Positions 119-29,600 of a stretch of 64,000 nt of DNA are shown here, in pieces. The translations under genes and the position numbers were made by a program. The notes beneath the pieces were generated by a model. It made no database searches. It saw only the letters and a program-made list of their open reading frames with translations, and was not told where the DNA came from. Position 1 is the stretch's first letter, and the number at the start of each line of letters is the position of its first letter. The DNA lies in contig NC_009440.1 in NCBI RefSeq assembly GCF_000016605.1, positions 434,001-498,000 on the forward strand, in the 5' to 3' direction. The DNA comes from Metallosphaera sedula DSM 5348 (GTDB taxonomy: Archaea > Thermoproteota > Thermoprotei_A > Sulfolobales > Sulfolobaceae).

Positions 119-1742
119 TTCCTATCTGCCTTAATAGTTTGATTATTGTATTTAGCCTTATCACTTGGGTTGGAAGAGTCCTGTAATTCATCAGGAAGAA
201 GGCAATGGCCGGAGCTGCAAAGGCGTTACCCAACAATATAAGTGGTAGGAATCCTGTGGAACTGGAGTTAGCTGGCTGGATGTAGAGGTTCCACCAGAAG
301 GATATGGACTTGAAGTCCACAGACTCTCCTGAACCACCCTGGAAGACAGCGAACGCCACGTGATAGGTCTGCCCTGGTTGTAGCTGAATCTGATAGTGGG
401 ACTCACCCTGTCCTCCAGATACTCCCACAGTGGAGAAGGTCCTGGCAAACTCCGCGATCATGTAGGGGCCTGTTGGGGTGTTAACGAACTGGAAACCTGT
501 AGCTACTACTGAGGGATCCCATAACTGCGACCCATTGACCATACCATTCATGGCCTCGAAGGGATTGACGTGGGGGTTGTCAAGCGAGGGGAAAGAAACC
601 TGATAGGCGCCACCTATGTAGTAGATCGATGAACCGTTCACGAAGGCATCAGCTATTAGTCCTTGATTTGGCAGATATCCTAGGTTAAGCGGGTCCTTGT
701 ACTGAGGATAGTGGGTGTAAGGTGGTGGGGAGGTTCTGCTGAATAAGGTGGGACCTGGATAACCAGCGTCCTGTGTATTGTTTGCCCTCGGGTTGCTGTT
801 CAAAATCCAAAGCTCAGCTTGACCGGCAGATAGGGCTCCAGAGGTTCCTGGCATCATGTGAGGTGTGTAAGCTACCTGTGTCCAGGAATTGGGAACTCCA
901 CCTAGTAACCACAGAATGGCTAACCTCTCCGGATACATGTATGTACTGTTGTAGAATAGGGATACATACCCAGCAGTGTCCTCTGGATAAAACAGGTTAT
1001 AGGTATCCTGTGCCCATGTGGTCCCGTTAAGTCCCATGGCAAGGAACTGGCTCAATGACGTCACTGGAGTCCCATTGTAGTTCAGGTTGATGGAGGTTAC
1101 GTTTATTGGATTTCCGTTGTTGAGAGGATTGCCTTGAGGATCTATGGCACCTACTATCTGGCCATAAAGCTTTCCACTTTGGTTATACACATATATCGTT
1201 ATTGGATTTGTGAGTGCTTGACCTGGTGGATAACCTAGTTGCTCCGATGTGGGAAGAGTATAGACCGAAGCCACACCCTGGTTACTCGAGCTGTAGGACA
1301 CATTCACAACCCACCAGCCCTTTGGAATGGGATGCGCGAATGGTTCCCATATTTGACCTGTAGGTGTCGTTTCAGGGCAAGCTAACCAAGACTCCTGTCC
1401 AACCACTGGAGCCTTCATTAAGATGAAGATGTAGGGTACTCCCTGCACATATGTCCAGGCAGCCTTAACATACACGATCGTCGTATGCCCTGATATTCCA
1501 TCAGGAACTGGAACTGTTGGCTCCAATGGAACCGAGCTGAAGGGTATTTGCTGCCAGAACGACTCTGATCCAGGGTTTCCTTCATTTATCTGGGCATTGG
1601 GTATATAGTACGCTGTTACAGTGTTGGCAGCGTTAGACGCAGCATTCAATAGAACATCTGCACCATAAGCTACACCAACTAAAACCAACATAAAAACGAA
1701 ACCTAATATGAGAAGAGTTTTTACATTGTTTCCATTTGCCAT
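96..1742 (-). CDS. CbsA-like extracytoplasmic cytochrome b558/566 subunit of the fox cluster
   Basis: A 548-residue protein with an N-terminal hydrophobic signal/anchor (about residues 8-28), a long extracytoplasmic domain rich in Asn-X-Ser/Thr sites, and one C-terminal membrane helix (about 497-520). This is the CbsA plan: a glycosylated heme b protein held outside the membrane that passes electrons into the respiratory chain. The start ATG has a GGTGAG ribosome site just upstream. It is third in a minus-strand operon foxB - small membrane protein - this gene - CbsB-like. It differs from the other cbsA copies in the window (478 residues) by being longer and lacking their poly-Thr stalk. In iron oxidisers such cytochromes are thought to take electrons from Fe(II) outside the cell; that role is inferred from the neighbours. 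Heme ligands were not identified. Confidence 0.75.
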
Positions 1743-19939: not shown

Positions 19940-20230
19940 TCACTCCACCTGCTGTAAGACCCTATGGGTTGGCCTTCCCTCGATGATTGTCTTTCCATAT
20001 GAAGTGGTGTCCCTATACGCCTGACTTGACACGAATTGTCTAAACACTTCCAAGTTTTCCCATTCACTATAGATGAGGTATTCCTGAGGATCAGATACGC
20101 TCCTGTATAACTTCCCATCCTTGAAACCCGGGAAGTTCTTCTTCAGATACTCCAGAACCTTCGAGAAGGTTTCCTCAAATTCCTTTTCATGACCCTTCTT
20201 GACCCTATAATAAAATCCTACATTTATCAT
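19940..20230 (-). CDS. Antibiotic-biosynthesis-monooxygenase-fold small protein, distal gene of the soxLN cluster
   Basis: A 96-residue protein with the dimeric ferredoxin-like ABM/HmoA pattern: a first strand INVGFYYRVKKGHE, a helix with EFEETFSKVLEYLKK, FPGFKDGKLYR, and the strand EYLIYSEWENLEVFRQF. The ATG at 20230 is chosen; a longer frame from 20278 would run into soxN and adds Phe-rich residues with no family support. It lies 31 bases downstream of soxN. In the Sulfolobus acidocaldarius cbsAB-soxLN cluster the last gene is a small ORF called odsN, and this is its positional equivalent. A heme-handling role is possible for this fold but not shown. Confidence 0.65.
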   Translation of the reverse strand: MINVGFYYRVKKGHEKEFEETFSKVLEYLKKNFPGFKDGKLYRSVSDPQEYLIYSEWENLEVFRQFVSSQAYRDTTSYGKTIIEGRPTHRVLQQVE

Positions 20231-20261: not shown

Positions 20262-21908
20262 TTATTCTTCCTTCTCAACGGGCTTCTTGTAGACCACGTA
20301 GTGGTAGAGAGAGATTACCTCTCCCAGCATTAGAAATACCAGTCCCAGATCCACTCCGAACAGGTTTGAGGCATAGCCAGTTGGAGGGATAGTCCACATT
20401 TGCGCCACTATTATCACAACTAGAATGAAGAGAATGCTCATGAGAACCTCCGCGAACTTCCTCTTGGTCTCATTGGAGGTGGGAGTCTCAGTGGTTGTTC
20501 TGACTTCAGGTACAGCATTGTTGGGAAAACCCTTACTCAGAACTACCTTGCCCATGGTCTTACTTCCTATAAAGAATAGCGAGCCCGTGAATAGCGTGAC
20601 CGCAAAGGTAAACAGGCTTGGATAGTCGATTAGCTCCACGACGGAACCAGCGAACAACATTGCCACCACCACGAAGAGTAGAGATGTAAGGGGTGATATT
20701 CCTCTGACCTGTTTCGTCTTGACGTCCATTGGCTTAATGAAGGTTAAACCTAGAGCTACTATAATTGCCGGTATGAGATAAGCGATAACCTGTTCCTTAA
20801 TACTTACTTCAACTCCGGGAGCAAGATCTCCCCACAGGGAGGTTTGTATAAGGTACGTAATCATGAGGATACCTATCCCAGTGAATACCTTCCTCTTGAG
20901 CGGGTGAAGTTCGTCGCTTCTATCTATGAATGGCAAGATGATGAGGTATACCAGTGGTATTATTACACCTATCATTAGAAATATTACCACGTCACTGGTG
21001 AAGTCTGCGATCTTGTAGAGGAACAGGAAGAACCACGGTGGATAGGTTGTAATATGCGCTGCAGCAGGGCTGTTGGGTGGAGGAGCTGGCTTCGGGTTCA
21101 TGAAGGGATCGAAGTATTGTGGCAGTCCGTTTAGGTAGGCTAGCGCGTTCGGGATAGCTAGAATGAAACCCCAAGTCATGAAAATCAGCGAGCTCATGTA
21201 AACGAAGTTCCTAGGCCACCATGGATTAAACTTAGACCATTCCTCCTTGGTGTAAACCGCAGGCGCCTTTGGCTTTACCTTCCTTGAGGGCATCATTCCA
21301 TACTGCTCCGCAAGGAAGAAGTGGAACACGAAAAGTAGACCTATTAAAGCCACTAGGATAATGTGCAACGCAAGTACTCTCGTGTAGTCTCCAGTGTCAT
21401 AATTCCCGAAGATGATGGGTATTAAGAAGGACAGTTGCGGAATTGAGGTGATGATTCCGGCACCAACGTCAACAGCGCTAACTGCGAGGGCGTCCCCAAT
21501 AAGGCTATATCCCAGGAAGGAAGCTCCTAGGGTGAGGACGAGCATTAAAACGCCGAGTATCCACAGGAGTTCCCTTGGCTTCTTATATGCTCCCACGAAA
21601 TAGTTCCTAAACATGTGAACGTAAGCCAGGATAATCATGGCGTAGGAGCCATATAGGTGACTATAGAGCACCACGGACCCATAGGGCACTTGATTGATTA
21701 TGGTCTCAGTTGACTGGTAACCTGCTGCTGCGTTATAATATAGCAGAAGTATTAGGCCAGATATCACGGTGTAGATAAATGATGCAGCGACCAACGCGCC
21801 TAACCATTCGTTAACGTGATACATGTAGTCTGGAGTCTTGAAGAAAGGTAGGTCATTTAATCCTAGTCTCTCCGAAAACCAGTTTGAAACCCTTTTTGTT
21901 AAACTCAT
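20262..21908 (-). CDS. soxN: SoxN, cytochrome b of a bc1-like complex
   Basis: A 548-residue membrane protein with the four heme-b histidines of cytochrome b: the SHLYGSYAMIILAYVHM pair (His-x13-His) near residues 83-97 and LHIILVALIGLLFVFHFF (His-x13-His) near 177-191. The Qo-site PEWY motif is replaced by PPWF (YPPWFF at about 288), as in archaeal SoxN/SoxC-type proteins. C-terminal helices extend beyond the usual eight. It lies 45 bases after soxL and has a GGTGAAA site. With SoxL and CbsAB it should form a quinol- or cytochrome-oxidising complex that, in iron oxidisers, may also run in reverse. Confidence 0.88.
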   Translation of the reverse strand: MSLTKRVSNWFSERLGLNDLPFFKTPDYMYHVNEWLGALVAASFIYTVISGLILLLYYNAAAGYQSTETIINQVPYGSVVLYSHLYGSYAMIILAYVHMFRNYFVGAYKKPRELLWILGVLMLVLTLGASFLGYSLIGDALAVSAVDVGAGIITSIPQLSFLIPIIFGNYDTGDYTRVLALHIILVALIGLLFVFHFFLAEQYGMMPSRKVKPKAPAVYTKEEWSKFNPWWPRNFVYMSSLIFMTWGFILAIPNALAYLNGLPQYFDPFMNPKPAPPPNSPAAAHITTYPPWFFLFLYKIADFTSDVVIFLMIGVIIPLVYLIILPFIDRSDELHPLKRKVFTGIGILMITYLIQTSLWGDLAPGVEVSIKEQVIAYLIPAIIVALGLTFIKPMDVKTKQVRGISPLTSLLFVVVAMLFAGSVVELIDYPSLFTFAVTLFTGSLFFIGSKTMGKVVLSKGFPNNAVPEVRTTTETPTSNETKRKFAEVLMSILFILVVIIVAQMWTIPPTGYASNLFGVDLGLVFLMLGEVISLYHYVVYKKPVEKEE

Positions 21909-21953: not shown

Positions 21954-22934
21954 TCATGAACCCGAGAACGGGTTCGTGCTAGCTTGTACCTGTGTCTTAC
22001 TTCCCACCGAACTGCCGTACTGAGAGGTATCCAGATCCTTTGTGGGATCTTGTGATGGTACGCCGTCTGATCCCTCTGGGTAAGTGGCAACACCTATGGC
22101 CCCTATCGCGTAAAGGTAGTCTGTGGAGCTGTCATACTCAAGGATAACGGCGGGTAACGGTCTTTGCGTAGGGCCTGTTAATACAGCACCTCCCCCATAG
22201 GGATCGTACGTGGAACCGTGGCAGTCACAATGGATCAATGCTGGGATATTGGCCTGCTTTGCGGCTAGCAAGGCCTGAGCGGTCAGCGTGTTAGGCTCTG
22301 GAGCGGTGAGCTGTGAGGGTCCCACGTAGTTAGGAGGATAGAAATGTATGTACGGAGGCGTACAACCTAGATGCTGGCATATGGCAGAGTAGGATACGAT
22401 CGAGTTATTTGGTCCAACGCCTCCAGGGAACTTGTACGTCTTCCCAGTTTGTGGAACGGACACCTCCACGGGCGCAATGGAGACCGGATTACCAGACTTA
22501 TCGCCCAGATTGAGGAGGAAGTTGGGTTCACCTGTTAGAGGATACTCGTATAGAGTGATTATGGGGCTGTTCACTGGGATAGAGGACGCCTTCAACGGGT
22601 TCCCTGACACATCTACCAGAAGGGACTTGGGGAAGCCAGTAGCCTGCTCCACTGGCGGAACAAGAACTCTTAGCCCGGGGATTATTCCAACCACCGTCGC
22701 GGCGGCTACACCTATGACTATTCCCTTTAGGAAGTTTCTTCTCCCCTCATCAATTCCGCCCACATTTTTCCCCACATAGTTAAACAGGTAATCCTCGCCT
22801 TTCTCTACAAACTCCCTGCTATCGAACCTAGTCTTGGGATTCCTCATGGTCCTAAGTAATTTCTGTATGAAATACAGATCTGAAGTCTTCAGGACACCCT
22901 TCTCGCCGTTCCCTAACCTAATTTTTAACGGCAT
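21954..22934 (-). CDS. soxL: SoxL, Rieske iron-sulfur protein
   Basis: A 326-residue Rieske protein. Cluster-binding boxes are CQHLGC (about 186) and CDCHGS (about 235), separated by a long insertion of more than 40 residues as in archaeal SoxL. A twin-arginine-like motif GRRNFLKG at about 64 precedes a hydrophobic helix, so it is probably exported folded by Tat and stays anchored. The C-terminal tail is Ser/Gln-rich. It is followed by soxN. A [2Fe-2S] cluster outside the membrane would exchange electrons with quinol and CbsA. Confidence 0.88.
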   Translation of the reverse strand: MPLKIRLGNGEKGVLKTSDLYFIQKLLRTMRNPKTRFDSREFVEKGEDYLFNYVGKNVGGIDEGRRNFLKGIVIGVAAATVVGIIPGLRVLVPPVEQATGFPKSLLVDVSGNPLKASSIPVNSPIITLYEYPLTGEPNFLLNLGDKSGNPVSIAPVEVSVPQTGKTYKFPGGVGPNNSIVSYSAICQHLGCTPPYIHFYPPNYVGPSQLTAPEPNTLTAQALLAAKQANIPALIHCDCHGSTYDPYGGGAVLTGPTQRPLPAVILEYDSSTDYLYAIGAIGVATYPEGSDGVPSQDPTKDLDTSQYGSSVGSKTQVQASTNPFSGS

Positions 22935-23109
22935 TTAGCCTTCACATCGCTATTATACTCCCACATTTATATTAAGACTTTGTCGTTGGACTATTTGTCA
23001 ATTTAACTATTGATATATAAGGGTTGTTTGGTCCGTAAAAAGAAACCACCAAGAAGGAACTCGTTAAAGAAAGTTTTTTCCTTAATATGGAGAAATTAAA
23101 AAAGAGTTT

Positions 23110-24543
23110 CTATCTTCTAAACACCACATACAAGGAGACTAAGACTATGATAGCAACTACTGCTCCTATGATAGTAGCATCTAGAGCTACACCATTCTCA
23201 TTAGGCACAGTTGTGGTGGAGGTGGTGTTGGTGGTGGTTGTGGTGTTTGATGTTGTAGTGGTTGTTGTAGTGGTTGTGGTTGGGGCCGAATTGGAGAGGG
23301 TGAACTGGAGGAAGCCAGAGGTGATGGACTTGTCGAACAGGGTCTCACCCAGCTTGCCCTGCCAAACAGCGAAGGCAACGTAGTAGGTGTTGCCCACAGT
23401 GAAGTTGGGCATCCACTGGGCATATGCCTGAGGTACCTGTAGGGGTCTCACGTACTCCACGGTCCAGAAACCGTTGGAGTAAGTGGCTCCGGTCTTAACG
23501 AAGAAGAGGGAGCCGTTGAGGCCTGAGGAGGCCACGGGAGCGTACCATATGCCTGCCGTGTCCACTTCGTACATGTTGGTGTTGTTAGTGTAGAGCGGAA
23601 CAGCGAAGCCCTGATTACCTGGATCCGTGTAGGGTAGGCCAGTGAGAGACTCGTTATTCCATAGGTTTGCCGCGAAAGCGGGGTCGTAGGTCTTGTTGTT
23701 CTATGTGGCGCCGGAGACCCACATCCAGATGTTGGCTGCGCCTCCCTGCTGTTGTAGTGAACCACCTGCAGTTGTGAACGTATATCCGCTTAATGTTTCA
23801 CCTATATAGTCGCCTCCTATGTTCATGCAGTCAGTTGTGGGAGGAATTACGCTACCCATGTACCACATTATTGCAGCCCTGTCTGGGTAATATTGCGTTG
23901 CATTGACATAGTAGCCGTAGAACATTCCATGGTTATACAAGAGATACTGCTTCGGCAACGAGTCAGGAGTTATGATAACCCCGTTGGGTAATACCCATAT
24001 TTGAGTACCGTTAAGCATAGGCAACGTTATACCAGAGTAGTTCAGAATCAGACGACCATTTTCTTGAGTTCCATTAATGAAGGTAACATAGTTCGAGTAT
24101 GAGGTGTTAACGTAGTACGTAGTTCCTGGAGTTAGCTCCTGAAGTTGCTCAACTCCCGGACCGCTCGCAGCAGGATACTTTGCCGCTGCAGCTGCAGACC
24201 AGGCACCGAACGCTGGGTCTGGGGCTGGCCAGCTCATGAGGACCATGAGGTCAGTCCCATTCCAGGCTGTCTTCACCAGGACGTAATGGGTTAAACCGGA
24301 TGTTGGGGCCTGGGGTATGTTGGCCGTGAGCGAGATGTTGTCCCAAGGAATCTTGGACCAGAAGCTTTCAGTCCCTGGGGCACTGAGGTTAGCTGAACCC
24401 GAGATCTTGTAGGCTACTATCTGGGGAGTGGTTTGGGCCATGGGGACGCTGACAAAACCCATGATGAGTGAGGCGACCAGTAGTCCTACTCCTAGGATTA
24501 ACAAGATTTTCCTGTTGTCTAACCTGCGCATCAATTCAACCAC
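23110..24543 (-). pseudogene. cbsA2, second cbsA copy interrupted by one amber codon
   Basis: A 478-codon frame collinear with cbsA (25745-27181). It is open from the GTG at 24543 to the stop at 23110 except for TAG at 23703-23701, where cbsA has TGG (Trp281). There is no frameshift. The signal peptide, the first 119 or so codons, the C-terminal 170 codons, the poly-Thr stalk and the last helix are nearly identical to cbsA at DNA level, while codons about 120-258 diverge strongly. The promoter-proximal 49 bases are also identical. Either a young pseudogene, a sequencing error, or a read-through gene; Sulfolobales are not known to read TAG as sense. An ATG at 24531 is an alternative start. Confidence 0.8.
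23211..23770. repeat. 3' half of the cbsA duplication (copy in cbsA2)
   Basis: Matches 25849-26405 almost base for base. Differences seen are a 3-base indel in the Thr-codon run near 23253, the TGG to TAG change at 23702, and one silent change near 23739. Such identity at silent sites implies very recent duplication or gene conversion. Confidence 0.85.
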
Positions 24544-24592
24544 GAAAAAATAGTCTCGGGAAGTATAATAAACTTAAGAAATTGGACTCATG
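24186..24592. repeat. 5' part of the cbsA duplication (copy in cbsA2)
   Basis: A block of 407 bases identical to 26824-27230, covering 49 bases upstream of the start codon (including the TATTATA promoter box near 24566) and the first 119 codons. Identity ends sharply on both sides. Confidence 0.85.
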
Positions 24593-24806
24593 AAAGGTTA
24601 GTCGAAATTTAGAAACCTAAAACAGTTTTAAAGAATTTTTTAGTTATAACTCCTTTAAACCTCTCTCATTTTTTATGTCGTCTAGGGTTAATAATATGCG
24701 CTAATAATATACTACATATATAATTATTTCATATTGAGACAACTATACTGGGATGAGAGAATGAGACTTAAAGAATGTTGAAAAAGAGTAGCAGTAAAGG
24801 AGTGAA

Positions 24807-25748
24807 CTAAGTTCTGTTTTGTGCTTTGTTTATAATTCTATCTAATAGCCTGCTCTTTCCTTCTTTCATGTTGATTAGGATGACCCCAATTATCGGGTAT
24901 ATCATATAGAGAATTAAATGATAACCGTTCACCCCTAGAAATACCGTCGTTATTACCATGAAGTATCCTAGACCAGCATAGGGATTCCTGCTAAGCGCTA
25001 TGGTGACTGATAGATAAATGGCCACCGCAAGGGATATCACGAATAAGGGTAGTGAATACGGATTCGTGAGGACTATACCGAAAACTGAGGGCATTACCAT
25101 GTTCATTATTATATCCATGAACCTGTTGCTGGAAACCAGGAAATAGATTGGAAGAAACACGAAAAGCGCAGGGATTGATGCCAAGTAGGAGATCGAAGCT
25201 CTTTTTAGACTAAGATTGCGGGAACTCCAGAGCACGGTATAGACTAGGAAACTAACCAGGGAGACCTCAAATACTAGAAGGTAATTGAGCAAGAGCTCCA
25301 CATGGGATATATCCACGAGTAATCCGGCCACAATCAGCAGACCCACCATGAAGGCGGTGGGGAGATTTACTAGGGAAAGAATAGGGGCTTGGAGAAAGCT
25401 CTCGACTACACCAAGAATTCCAAGTGTGGCCACTATTACCTCGTACATTACCCATAGCGGGGATGAGAAGTAGTTATTGATAAGGGTAAAAGCTGGGGAG
25501 ATCAGTAGAAGAATACCTAGAGGTAGTAACGCCTTAACCTTTTTCCATGAGAGAATAGAGAAAATTCCTATTGACAGGTACCCCAGATATATGCCGATCT
25601 GACCCAGCCTAGTTAGAACGTTCTGGAATGGGATATGAATGGGTAGATAGGAAACCGAGAAGATAAACTGCAGAATGAATTGAAAAATAGAGGCTAAAGC
25701 CAAAAAAACCAGAACTAACTTAATTGATTCATCCCTTAGGGAGCTCAT
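24807..25748 (-). CDS. cbsB: CbsB, membrane partner of cytochrome b558/566
   Basis: A 313-residue, strongly hydrophobic protein with about nine membrane helices and a short basic C-terminus (INKAQNRT). It overlaps cbsA by four bases (ATGA), so it is translated together with it. In Sulfolobus CbsB is the hydrophobic subunit that accompanies the heme protein CbsA; it has no known cofactor motif and none is visible here. cbsA2 lacks such a partner of its own, which fits cbsA2 being the derived copy. T-rich sequence after the stop may end the transcript. Confidence 0.82.
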
Positions 25749-27181
25749 CTTCTAAACACCACGTATAGGGCTAGAAGGGCTATGATTGCTACGATTACAC
25801 CTACTACAGTAACATCCAGTGTAACGTTCCCCACACTGGAGGAAGTGCTTGTGGTGGAGGTGGTGTTGGTGGTGGTTGTGGTGTTTGATGTAGTGGTTGT
25901 TGTAGTGGTTGTGGTTGGGGCCGAATTGGAGAGGGTGAACTGGAGGAAGCCAGAGGTGATGGACTTGTCGAACAGGGTCTCACCCAGCTTGCCCTGCCAA
26001 ACAGCGAAGGCAACGTAGTAGGTGTTGCCCACAGTGAAGTTGGGCATCCACTGGGCATATGCCTGAGGTACCTGTAGGGGTCTCACGTACTCCACGGTCC
26101 AGAAACCGTTGGAGTAAGTGGCTCCGGTCTTAACGAAGAAGAGGGAGCCGTTGAGGCCTGAGGAGGCCACGGGAGCGTACCATATGCCTGCCGTGTCCAC
26201 TTCGTACATGTTGGTGTTGTTAGTGTAGAGCGGAACAGCGAAGCCCTGATTACCTGGATCCGTGTAGGGTAGGCCAGTGAGAGACTCGTTATTCCATAGG
26301 TTTGCCGCGAAAGCGGGGTCGTAGGTCTTGTTGTTCCATGTGGCGCCGGAGACCCACATCCAGATGTTGGCTGCACCTCCCTGCTGTTGTAGTGAACCAC
26401 CTGCATCCTTTAGGGTGAAGCCATCAAACTCCTGTCCAGGTACCTTTCCACCTATGTTCATACAGTCACTTGTGGGAGGAATTACGCTACCCATGTACCA
26501 CATTATTGCAGCCCTGTCAGGGTAATACCAAGTGTTATTTGTGTAGTAACCATAAAACATACCATTGTTGTACAGGAGGTCCTCCATGGGTCTTAGGGAG
26601 TGATATAGGATAATACTACCATTGGGTAAGACCTGAATCTGCGTCATGTTTGGAGTTGGTAGGGTAATCCCAGAGTAATTTAGTATTAACCTCCCTTGTT
26701 CCTGCTTCCCGTTGATAATGGCATAATAATTACTGAAGGATTTATTCAGTGAGTACGTAACTCCTGGAGTTAGAAGGATTTGCCTGAATAGACCTGGACC
26801 ACTGGCAGCAGGATAGAGTGCACCTGCAGCTGCAGACCAGGCACCGAACGCTGGGTCTGGGGCTGGCCAGCTCATGAGGACCATGAGGTCAGTCCCATTC
26901 CAGGCTGTCTTCACCAGGACGTAATGGGTTAAACCGGATGTTGGGGCCTGGGGTATGTTGGCCGTGAGCGAGATGTTGTCCCAAGGAATCTTGGACCAGA
27001 AGCTTTCAGTCCCTGGGGCACTGAGGTTAGCTGAACCCGAGATCTTGTAGGCTACTATCTGGGGAGTGGTTTGGGCCATGGGGACGCTGACAAAACCCAT
27101 GATGAGTGAGGCGACCAGTAGTCCTACTCCTAGGATTAACAAGATTTTCCTGTTGTCTAACCTGCGCATCAATTCAACCAC
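25745..27181 (-). CDS. cbsA: CbsA, extracytoplasmic cytochrome b558/566 subunit A
   Basis: A 478-residue exported protein: signal/anchor at about 12-35, a large glycosylated domain with many N-X-S/T sites, a Thr/Asn/Ser stalk of about 30 residues (likely O-glycosylated) and a C-terminal helix (about 455-473). It is the mono-heme cytochrome of the CbsAB-SoxLN complex. Start is a GTG at 27181, with an ATG four codons later as alternative; TTTATTATA about 25 bases upstream fits a leaderless or nearly leaderless message. The central part (codons about 120-260) differs from cbsA2 while the flanks are identical. Confidence 0.87.
25849..26405. repeat. 3' half of the cbsA duplication (copy in cbsA)
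   Basis: Partner of 23211-23770. Includes the Trp281 codon TGG at 26338-26336 that is TAG in the other copy. Confidence 0.85.
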
Positions 27182-27230
27182 GAAAAAATAGTCTCGGGAA
27201 GTATAATAAACTTAAGAAATTGGACTCATG
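26824..27230. repeat. 5' part of the cbsA duplication (copy in cbsA)
   Basis: Partner of 24186-24592; identical over 407 bases including the promoter. Both copies should therefore be transcribed alike. Confidence 0.85.
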
Positions 27231-27242
27231 GTCAATTCAACT

Positions 27243-29600
27243 TTAGGTTAATCTTAGTAAACTTACCTTAATCTGATCAAATATTAAGTTGAAAGTAAAT
27301 GCAGTTAAGAGAATTAGTAAGGTTACCTGGATGGGAATAGGCGTGACCAGTATTCCAAGAGAGGAGATCATTAGTACAAATAATATGTCTGCAATAGACG
27401 AGATTAGAAGCGGTTTACTTGGCCTGGAGCTCCAAATTCTTCCCCTAGTTCGAAGGAGGTAAATTGTGAACTGACCGGTAAAGACAAGCATATCGAAAGT
27501 CGCTGTGTGTATTTGGTTTACGTCCAGCCTTAGATAGATTGAAAACCAGAGGACAAAGAAGGATTCCAACAATACCAGGAAGGCCAATATCAGAGAGGAC
27601 CTGACAATTTTGTCCACGTTCCATCTCTCAGGTTTCATGGAATAGGTGACGTTGTCGGTGGCAATTGACATGGTGACGAAATCGTTGAGGAAGAGCAAAA
27701 GTATTACATCAAAGGGAGTTGTCACGAAGAACCTTGTAACAAAGAAAGAGAGCGTTAGAAAAAGGACAACCTGGAGCGTCTTTATTATCTTGTTCATCGT
27801 GTAGGTGAGCATCCTTTGATATATCTTTCTACCCGTCTTAATGGCCTCAACAATATCGGTTAATCCCTCATGCGTCAGCACCATGCTTGCAGATGCCTTG
27901 GCAACGTCTGTGGAATTGTAGACCGCAATACCTACCTCTGCCTGTTTTAGCGCTGGCGCATCATTCACACCATCCCCAGTCATTCCTACTACGTGCCCAG
28001 AATCCTGAAGCGACTTAACGATGGTGTACTTATCCTCCGGAAAGACTTCCGCAAATACCTGACATTCCTCAACGTACTTCATCTTTTCCTGTTTAGATGC
28101 TTCCCTAACCTCTCTCATATCGCAAACCCTATCCCCTATACCCACTTCCTTAGCTACCTCGACAGCTATCAGTGAGTTGTCGCCTGTTACCATCTTAGGG
28201 GACACACCTAGATTCTTTATCTCTTGGATGAACCTCGCACTGTCAGGTCTAGGTCTATCGTAAAGCGGAAGCAGACCTACGACCTCAAGTTTTTCCCTCC
28301 CAGCAGCCACAGCGATCACCCTAAAGCCCTTCGATGAGAGTAAACTTACCTGTTCATCAAACCATTTCTTATCGACACTCGCCAACTGCTCTATTACCTG
28401 AGGGGCTCCCTTCATAATCCTGAGTTCGCCCTCTGGTGTAGATATTATGGCTTCCGTCCTTTTCTTGGACGGATCAAAAGGCTCAAAGTGCAACCTGGAG
28501 TAGGATGATGTGACTCCCCTCTCCCTGGAACACTCAGCCACTGCGACATCTATGGGATCCAGTGTTGCCTCATCTGATGCTAGAAGGGCATAAACAATTA
28601 CGTCTCTTTCAGTGTAACCCTTTGAAGGGACAGGATCGCCAACCCTAAGCCTGTTCTCGGTGAGAGTTCCAGTCTTATCTAGGTTAAGGACATCCATACT
28701 GGCAGCATCCTCAGAAGCGTTAAGCCTGGTAACCAAGATTCCCTTTCTCGAAAGCTCCTCGGCGCCCAAGGCCATGGCTATGGTGAAAGTTGCAGGAAGA
28801 GCCACTGGCACTGAGGCTATTAGGACAACTAAGGAGAAAGGTAAAACTTCCTCAAGTCTTATCCCGGCTAAAAGTGCGAATAAAGTGAGGGCAACCACTA
28901 GGGTAACGTCAATCATTATCAGGTATCTCACGATCTTCATGATTATGTCCTGAATATGGGATTTGGCCTTAGCTACCTGAACTAGTTGAGTGGTCTTGCC
29001 GAAATAGGTCCTTTCCCCTGTACTTATCACTATTCCCTTGGCTTCACCTCTCTTGACTACGGAGCCAGAGTAAACCGTGTCCAAGACTTTCCTTTCCACA
29101 GGCTGTGACTCCCCGGTCAGGGCTGACTGATCCACGAGAACTTCCCCTTCCACTATCCTAATGTCAGCGGGCACAATGTCTCCAATTCTTATGGTAACTA
29201 GATCCCCAGGCACCAACTCCTTGGCCTGGATTGAGATCCACTTCCCGTCTCTCTTTACCTTAGCCATGACCTGGAGTCTTCGTTTTAGAAGTTCCACAGC
29301 GTTCTCTGCCCTGTGCTCTTGGACGAAACTTATTACGGAGTTAAAAACTAGGAGAAAGAGAATTATGTACATGTCAAGGTATTTCTGAAGTATAAAGGTA
29401 AGTACTACCGTTACTTCCAACATCCATGGCACTGGAGCCCAGAACTTTAGGAGGAATTCAATGACCGGACTCCTCTTCTTCTCCTTGACTTCGTTGGGTC
29501 CAAACTTGAGAAGCCTGGATTTGGCTTCCTCTGAGGTTAGCCCATTCAAAGTGGTGTTTAGGGATTTTAGAAGAGAGTCCAGTGTCTCATTGTCGCTCAT
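27243..29600 (-). CDS. Plasma-membrane proton-efflux P-type ATPase (P3A)
   Basis: A 785-residue P-type ATPase. N-terminal cation-ATPase domain ([18 protein letters not shown]), A-domain TGES, phosphorylation site DKTGTLTEN at about 332, hinge [10 protein letters not shown] at about 545, and ten membrane helices with no CPC metal motif, as in fungal/plant and archaeal H+-ATPases. The ATG at 29600 ([10 protein letters not shown]) is chosen over a frame from 29744 that would overlap the upstream regulator gene and adds a non-conserved Arg/Lys-rich leader. It is 40 bases downstream of regulator copy B, so the two probably share a transcript. Proton export would help hold cytoplasmic pH during iron oxidation in acid. 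Confidence 0.85.

Follow-up and report, generated by a model that had tools for sequence, protein, structure and literature searches.

The window analysed here is a stretch of 64,000 nucleotides of the thermoacidophilic archaeon Metallosphaera sedula DSM 5348, corresponding to positions 434001-498000 of a single 2,191,517-base contig. Within it, we identified a respiratory gene cluster that reads, on the minus strand, ATPase, cbsA1, cbsB, cbsA2, soxL and soxN (Table 1). The two cbsA copies, which are the only ones in the genome, form a pair of direct repeats that enclose cbsB and are spaced 2.6 kb apart. Msed_0504 and Msed_0505 have been described as CbsA and a P-type ATPase, respectively (PMC12529230), and since this pair agrees with the gene order found here, cbsA1 is Msed_0504; by counting from it, cbsA2 would be Msed_0502. 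Of the two, cbsA1 is the functional one, supplying the bc1-analogous cbsAB-soxLN complex. The cluster was reportedly already written soxNL-cbsABA in a 2008 transcriptome study of M. sedula, and therefore the two-gene state was probably known before and the existence of two cbsA genes in this species is probably not new in itself.

Table 1. Features of the cbsA-soxLN cluster, in window coordinates.
Feature	Position	Strand	Description
cbsA1 (Msed_0504)	25745-27181	minus	Intact, 478 aa, cytochrome b558/566 subunit A; TIGR03154 803 bits (cut-off 468.4); EB_dh match
cbsB	24807-25748	minus	Between the cbsA copies; TIGR03155 210 bits (cut-off 150.4)
cbsA2	23110-24543	minus	Mosaic paralog with internal TAG; rest of frame open to the normal TAG stop at 23110-23112
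soxL	21954-22934	minus	Rieske gene, next after cbsA2; kept in relatives
soxN	20262-21908	minus	Cytochrome b gene
5' tract, cbsA1	26824-27230	minus	Partner of cbsA2 24186-24592
5' tract, cbsA2	24186-24592	minus	407/407 bases identical to cbsA1; promoter included
3' tract, cbsA1	25850-26405	minus	Partner of cbsA2 23212-23770
3' tract, cbsA2	23212-23770	minus	556/559 bases common with cbsA1; 2 substitutions and a 3-base indel
Divergent centre, cbsA2	23771-24185	minus	Paralog type; nearest is the second CbsA of M. yellowstonensis
49-base identical island	23835-23883	minus	Inside the divergent centre; corresponds to cbsA1 26470-26518
Divergent C-terminal tail, cbsA2	23110-23211	minus	About 100 bases, unconverted; carries the membrane anchor
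Amber TAG	23701-23703	minus	Codon 281 of cbsA2, Trp282 of cbsA1
AGTCCAAY, then CTTAA within 12 bases	27212-27226	minus	Upstream of cbsA1
AGTCCAAY, then CTTAA within 12 bases	24574-24588	minus	Upstream of cbsA2
AGTCCAAY, then CTTAA within 12 bases	22972-22992	minus	Upstream of soxL

cbsA1 is a full member of the CbsA family of the Sulfolobales (TIGR03154), and cbsA2 follows the same domain plan but has a mosaic composition and a stop at codon 281. A profile match assigns CbsA to the EB_dh haem b family, and profile and fold searches retrieve EbdC together with subunit C of nitrite oxidoreductase; the predicted CbsA1 structure (mean pLDDT 60, from 11 sequences) is adequate for this fold match, not for detailed mapping of the centre. 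Like EbdC, the haem b subunit of type II DMSO reductases (PF09459; PDB 2ivf chain C), CbsA has a haem b domain by profile and predicted fold, but it exceeds EbdC in length and has a Thr-rich linker and an anchor at the C-terminus. For EbdC, Lys and Met have been reported as the haem ligands (PMC8840923). In the profile alignment, the conserved Lys corresponds to CbsA1 Lys406, which is invariant in 11 sequences and is taken as the predicted Lys ligand of CbsA; Met227, also invariant, is a candidate for the other haem ligand on grounds of motif similarity.

Elsewhere in the window (1443-1742, minus strand; G000:C1:435443-435742), a segment of a 552-aa open frame weakly resembles the N-terminal region of CbsA (35%), and the frame perhaps encodes another haem b protein.

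Identity tracts and divergent segments of cbsA2

A first-pass annotation of this DNA had described cbsA2 as matching cbsA1 over 407 bases at the 5' end and about 557 bases at the 3' end, and the alignment agrees with it almost to the base (Table 1). The 5' tract reaches upstream to 49 bases before the GTG start in the base-by-base alignment. Within the 3' tract, the differences are those that had been listed: a silent Gly change (GGT/GGC at 26375/23740), the change from Trp to stop (TGG/TAG at 26337/23702), and an indel that gives cbsA2 one additional Thr codon. The divergence of the centre, previously placed at codons 120-258 or thereabouts, spans approximately codons 121-262; over codons 127-227, the two copies have a DNA identity of 62%, with dN of 0.28 and saturated dS. 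We additionally identified two features that the annotation did not mention, namely renewed divergence in the last 100 bases or so, where the tails share 53% amino acid identity, and the 49-base identical island in the centre, which is perhaps a third, short conversion tract. Five N-glycosylation sequons lie in the centre of each copy, four of them at equivalent positions, and offer no clear contrast.

The coding alignment of the two genes contains 203 differences over 1431 aligned bases, and its longest identical runs are of 448 and 358 bases, compared to a maximum of 106 in 20,000 permutations of the coding differences. These run lengths differ from those of the tracts because the coding alignment excludes the promoter and places the indel otherwise. 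Thus, the identity tracts between the paralogs extend far beyond what is expected by chance.

A conserved element close to the promoter, consisting of AGTCCAAY followed by CTTAA, precedes cbsA1, cbsA2 and soxL, which account for three of only four such sites in the genome. Among the other Sulfolobaceae copies examined, AGTCCAA(C) was found upstream of cbsA in 23 of 25 cases and upstream of soxL in most, and the short element AGTCCAAC is present upstream of both genes in nearly all Sulfolobaceae examined. This short element may represent a putative operator, binding a regulator of the cbsA/soxL respiratory cluster. In a ChIP-seq study, the cbsA1-ATPase intergenic region (window 27182-27246) was among the most enriched AbfR1 sites (PMC12529230). 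Part of this region is exactly duplicated before cbsA2, and ChIP reads inside the shared tract are therefore not uniquely placeable.

Relatives and the origin of the cbsA2 centre

We compared the cluster with its counterparts in five further Metallosphaera genomes (G001-G005), M. javensis and M. yellowstonensis among them. All five contain one cbsA at the locus, orthologous to cbsA1 and followed by cbsB, soxL and soxN. In none of the five does a cbsA, or a remnant of a second one, occupy the cbsB-soxL spacer, where the alignable sequence is practically confined to the conserved soxL promoter region. Similarly, no recipient in the unconverted state was found in these genomes; the one similar sequence is that of M. 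yellowstonensis, at another locus.

In comparison with M. javensis, cbsA1 is 95.3% identical in its N-terminal part, 95.6% over residues 128-262 and 82.4% in the tail, and cbsA2 is 67.9% identical over residues 128-262 and 55.9% in the tail; over residues 263-430, both copies are 99.4% identical to it. Since its identity to M. javensis stays high in the centre, the 3' part and the tail, cbsA1 is, judged by sequence, an ordinary orthologue over its full length, and in cbsA2 this holds for the converted ends only. The earlier idea of a variable, donor-facing centre does not hold for cbsA1, whose centre is conserved like its N-terminal part, and only that of cbsA2 is odd. A hypervariable region was rejected for the same reason, that cbsA1 centres are conserved between species.

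Trees of the two regions conflict. The centre places cbsA2 apart from cbsA1 and beside the second M. yellowstonensis CbsA (99/93), and residues 263-430 place both copies together inside Metallosphaera. Constraining the cbsA2 centre to join cbsA1, or cbsA1 and M. javensis, was rejected (p-AU 0.005), which speaks against its recent derivation from cbsA1, and a position deep within the Metallosphaera cbsA clade was not rejected (p-AU 0.10). In the 14 columns where cbsA2 and the second M. yellowstonensis copy each carry a residue absent from every other row, the two agree in 6, and any other pair of rows agrees in at most three. A shared ancestry of the two is likely, with the reservation that the join involves a long branch. 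The divergent tail of cbsA2 is of insufficient length for placement in a tree.

By tree and shared residues, the second M. yellowstonensis CbsA (L010/L050) is the closest known type for the cbsA2 centre, but it is intact, occupies a separate locus, lacks the end conversion, and is only about 54% identical in the centre. It is 60% identical to cbsA1 and is accompanied by its own cbsB-like gene elsewhere in the genome. At this locus (L010, L020, L050), away from soxLN, we noted the second cbsA, the cbsB-like gene (30% identity) and the AGTCCAAC element, and a transposase-like ORF approximately 4 kb upstream.

Between cbsA1 and cbsA2, dS amounts to 0.026 for codons 2-126 and 0.008 for codons 259-430, and is saturated in the centre; the first of these values arises in the codons just beyond the tract edge, as the 5' tract itself contains no differences. 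The corresponding values between cbsA1 and M. javensis are 0.82 and 0.91, indicating that the conversions are recent relative to the species split.

We consider it probable, with good confidence, that cbsA2 is an old resident paralog that was overwritten by cbsA1 at both ends and then inactivated by a nonsense change. An old, divergent CbsA paralog would have resided between cbsB and soxL, and gene conversion from the neighbouring cbsA1 would have replaced its 5' end, together with the promoter, and its 3' end, recently in this lineage, and perhaps also the 49-base stretch in the middle. The original centre and C-terminal tail would have been left in place. Following the 3' conversion, a single G-to-A change would have turned Trp codon 281 into amber. 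The direction from cbsA1 to cbsA2 is suggested by the resemblance of both cbsA2 ends to the ordinary Metallosphaera orthologue and by the ordinary character of cbsA1 over its full length. We infer the unconverted resident cbsA2 indirectly, because none of the other genomes carries a cbsA in the interval from cbsB to soxL. Both the conversion tracts around the centre and the very recent inactivation of one copy, as proposed by the first-pass annotation, find support in the alignment, the trees, the dS values and the permutations.

It could instead be argued that cbsA1 was recently duplicated with its promoter, and that a centre and tail were subsequently imported by recombination from a foreign or distant CbsA gene. 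M. sedula alone among the Metallosphaera compared has a second cbsA at the locus, and the identical ends are compatible with a recent copy. However, this history would require at least two separate imports, for the centre and the tail, and more if the 49-base island is counted; the sequence just outside both tracts is unrelated to the flanks of cbsA1; and a search of 197 genomes from the order, of viral contigs and of plasmids gave no donor for the cbsA2 centre, its best match being 70% identical. We consequently regard it as unlikely.

The amber codon and the predicted truncated product

The numbering of the amber site differs between the copies because cbsA1 has one residue more before it. 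The codon is TGG (Trp) in cbsA1 and in all 7 of the other Metallosphaera-type copies compared. As the TAG sits inside the converted tract, it would most simply have arisen after the 3' conversion.

The 280-aa ORF of cbsA2 scores 389.1 bits against TIGR03154, under the cut-off of 468.4, and the full frame, with the stop passed as X, scores 709.5 bits, well above it, a pattern one would expect if the loss is young. Translation stopping after residue 280 would leave out the predicted Lys ligand (Lys406), the C-terminal half of the haem domain and the membrane anchor. Since this fragment is the most that cbsA2 would yield, we infer that the gene as sequenced is in effect a very young pseudogene.

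If the TAG were read through, or were a sequencing error, cbsA2 would yield a full chimeric CbsA. The frame is otherwise open, with the high score given above, and counterparts of the invariant Met227 and Lys406 are present in it. However, TAG is a normal stop here, ending 15 of the 44 non-overlapping long ORFs of the window (the interrupted cbsA2 ORF counted) and also the cbsA2 frame itself. No tRNA with a CUA anticodon was found among 44 Rfam tRNA matches, a list that is not quite complete, with tRNA-Trp and tRNA-Cys missing; and the matches to PylS fell below the cut-off. Read-through of the amber codon is therefore unsupported. One doubtful tRNA (L087, with loop TTCTAACA) is best read as tRNA-Arg(TCT), which is otherwise missing from the list. 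As regards sequencing error, the TAG lies 68 bases from cbsA2-specific sequence, so that correct placement of reads should be possible and misassignment at 23702 is unlikely; a base-call error there is conceivable. We judge a full-length product from cbsA2 to be quite improbable on either ground.

The suggestion of a switchable cassette, in which recombination between the copies would swap centres or repair the stop to give alternative CbsA proteins, draws on the divergent centre flanked by long identical stretches 2.6 kb apart, but it is extremely unlikely: a crossover between direct repeats flanking cbsB would delete cbsB and one cbsA rather than switch them, the cbsA1 centre is that of an ordinary orthologue and follows the species tree, so that there is no sign of past exchange, and there is a single alternative centre and no cassette array. 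A phase- or antigen-variation cassette is likewise unsupported, given only two gene copies and no inverted repeats of at least 40 bases between window positions 20000 and 32000.

Precedent for partial conversion between archaeal operon paralogs

Partial concerted evolution has been described for mtrA-1 and mtrA-2 of the methanogen mtr operon (PMC4632066). As with the cbsA pair, these are archaeal operon paralogs in which one part is gene-converted and another part is kept distinct. The mtrA pattern, however, is ancient, has arisen repeatedly and is conserved from genus to genus, both genes having apparently been retained, whereas the cbsA case is recent, confined to one genome, and has a nonsense mutation in the recipient. 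Partial gene conversion between archaeal operon paralogs is thus precedented, and cbsA is a recent, single-genome instance with an added nonsense change.

One might speculate, with little confidence, that cbsA2 represents a second Metallosphaera CbsA lineage with its own electron-donor specificity, its centre kept by selection and its ends homogenised to suit the shared CbsB and SoxLN. It would then have been a working chimera until the stop arose, possibly in the sequenced strain alone.

For the biology of M. sedula, the stop should be checked before cbsA2 is treated as a second functional CbsA. Measurements of cbsA in this species by expression profiling, ChIP or proteomics would be affected by the copies being indistinguishable in the shared tracts, promoter included. 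More broadly, the locus would provide an archaeal example of an old paralog masked by partial conversion, in which whole-gene identity mimics a recent duplicate and the older history is retained in the centre and tail alone.
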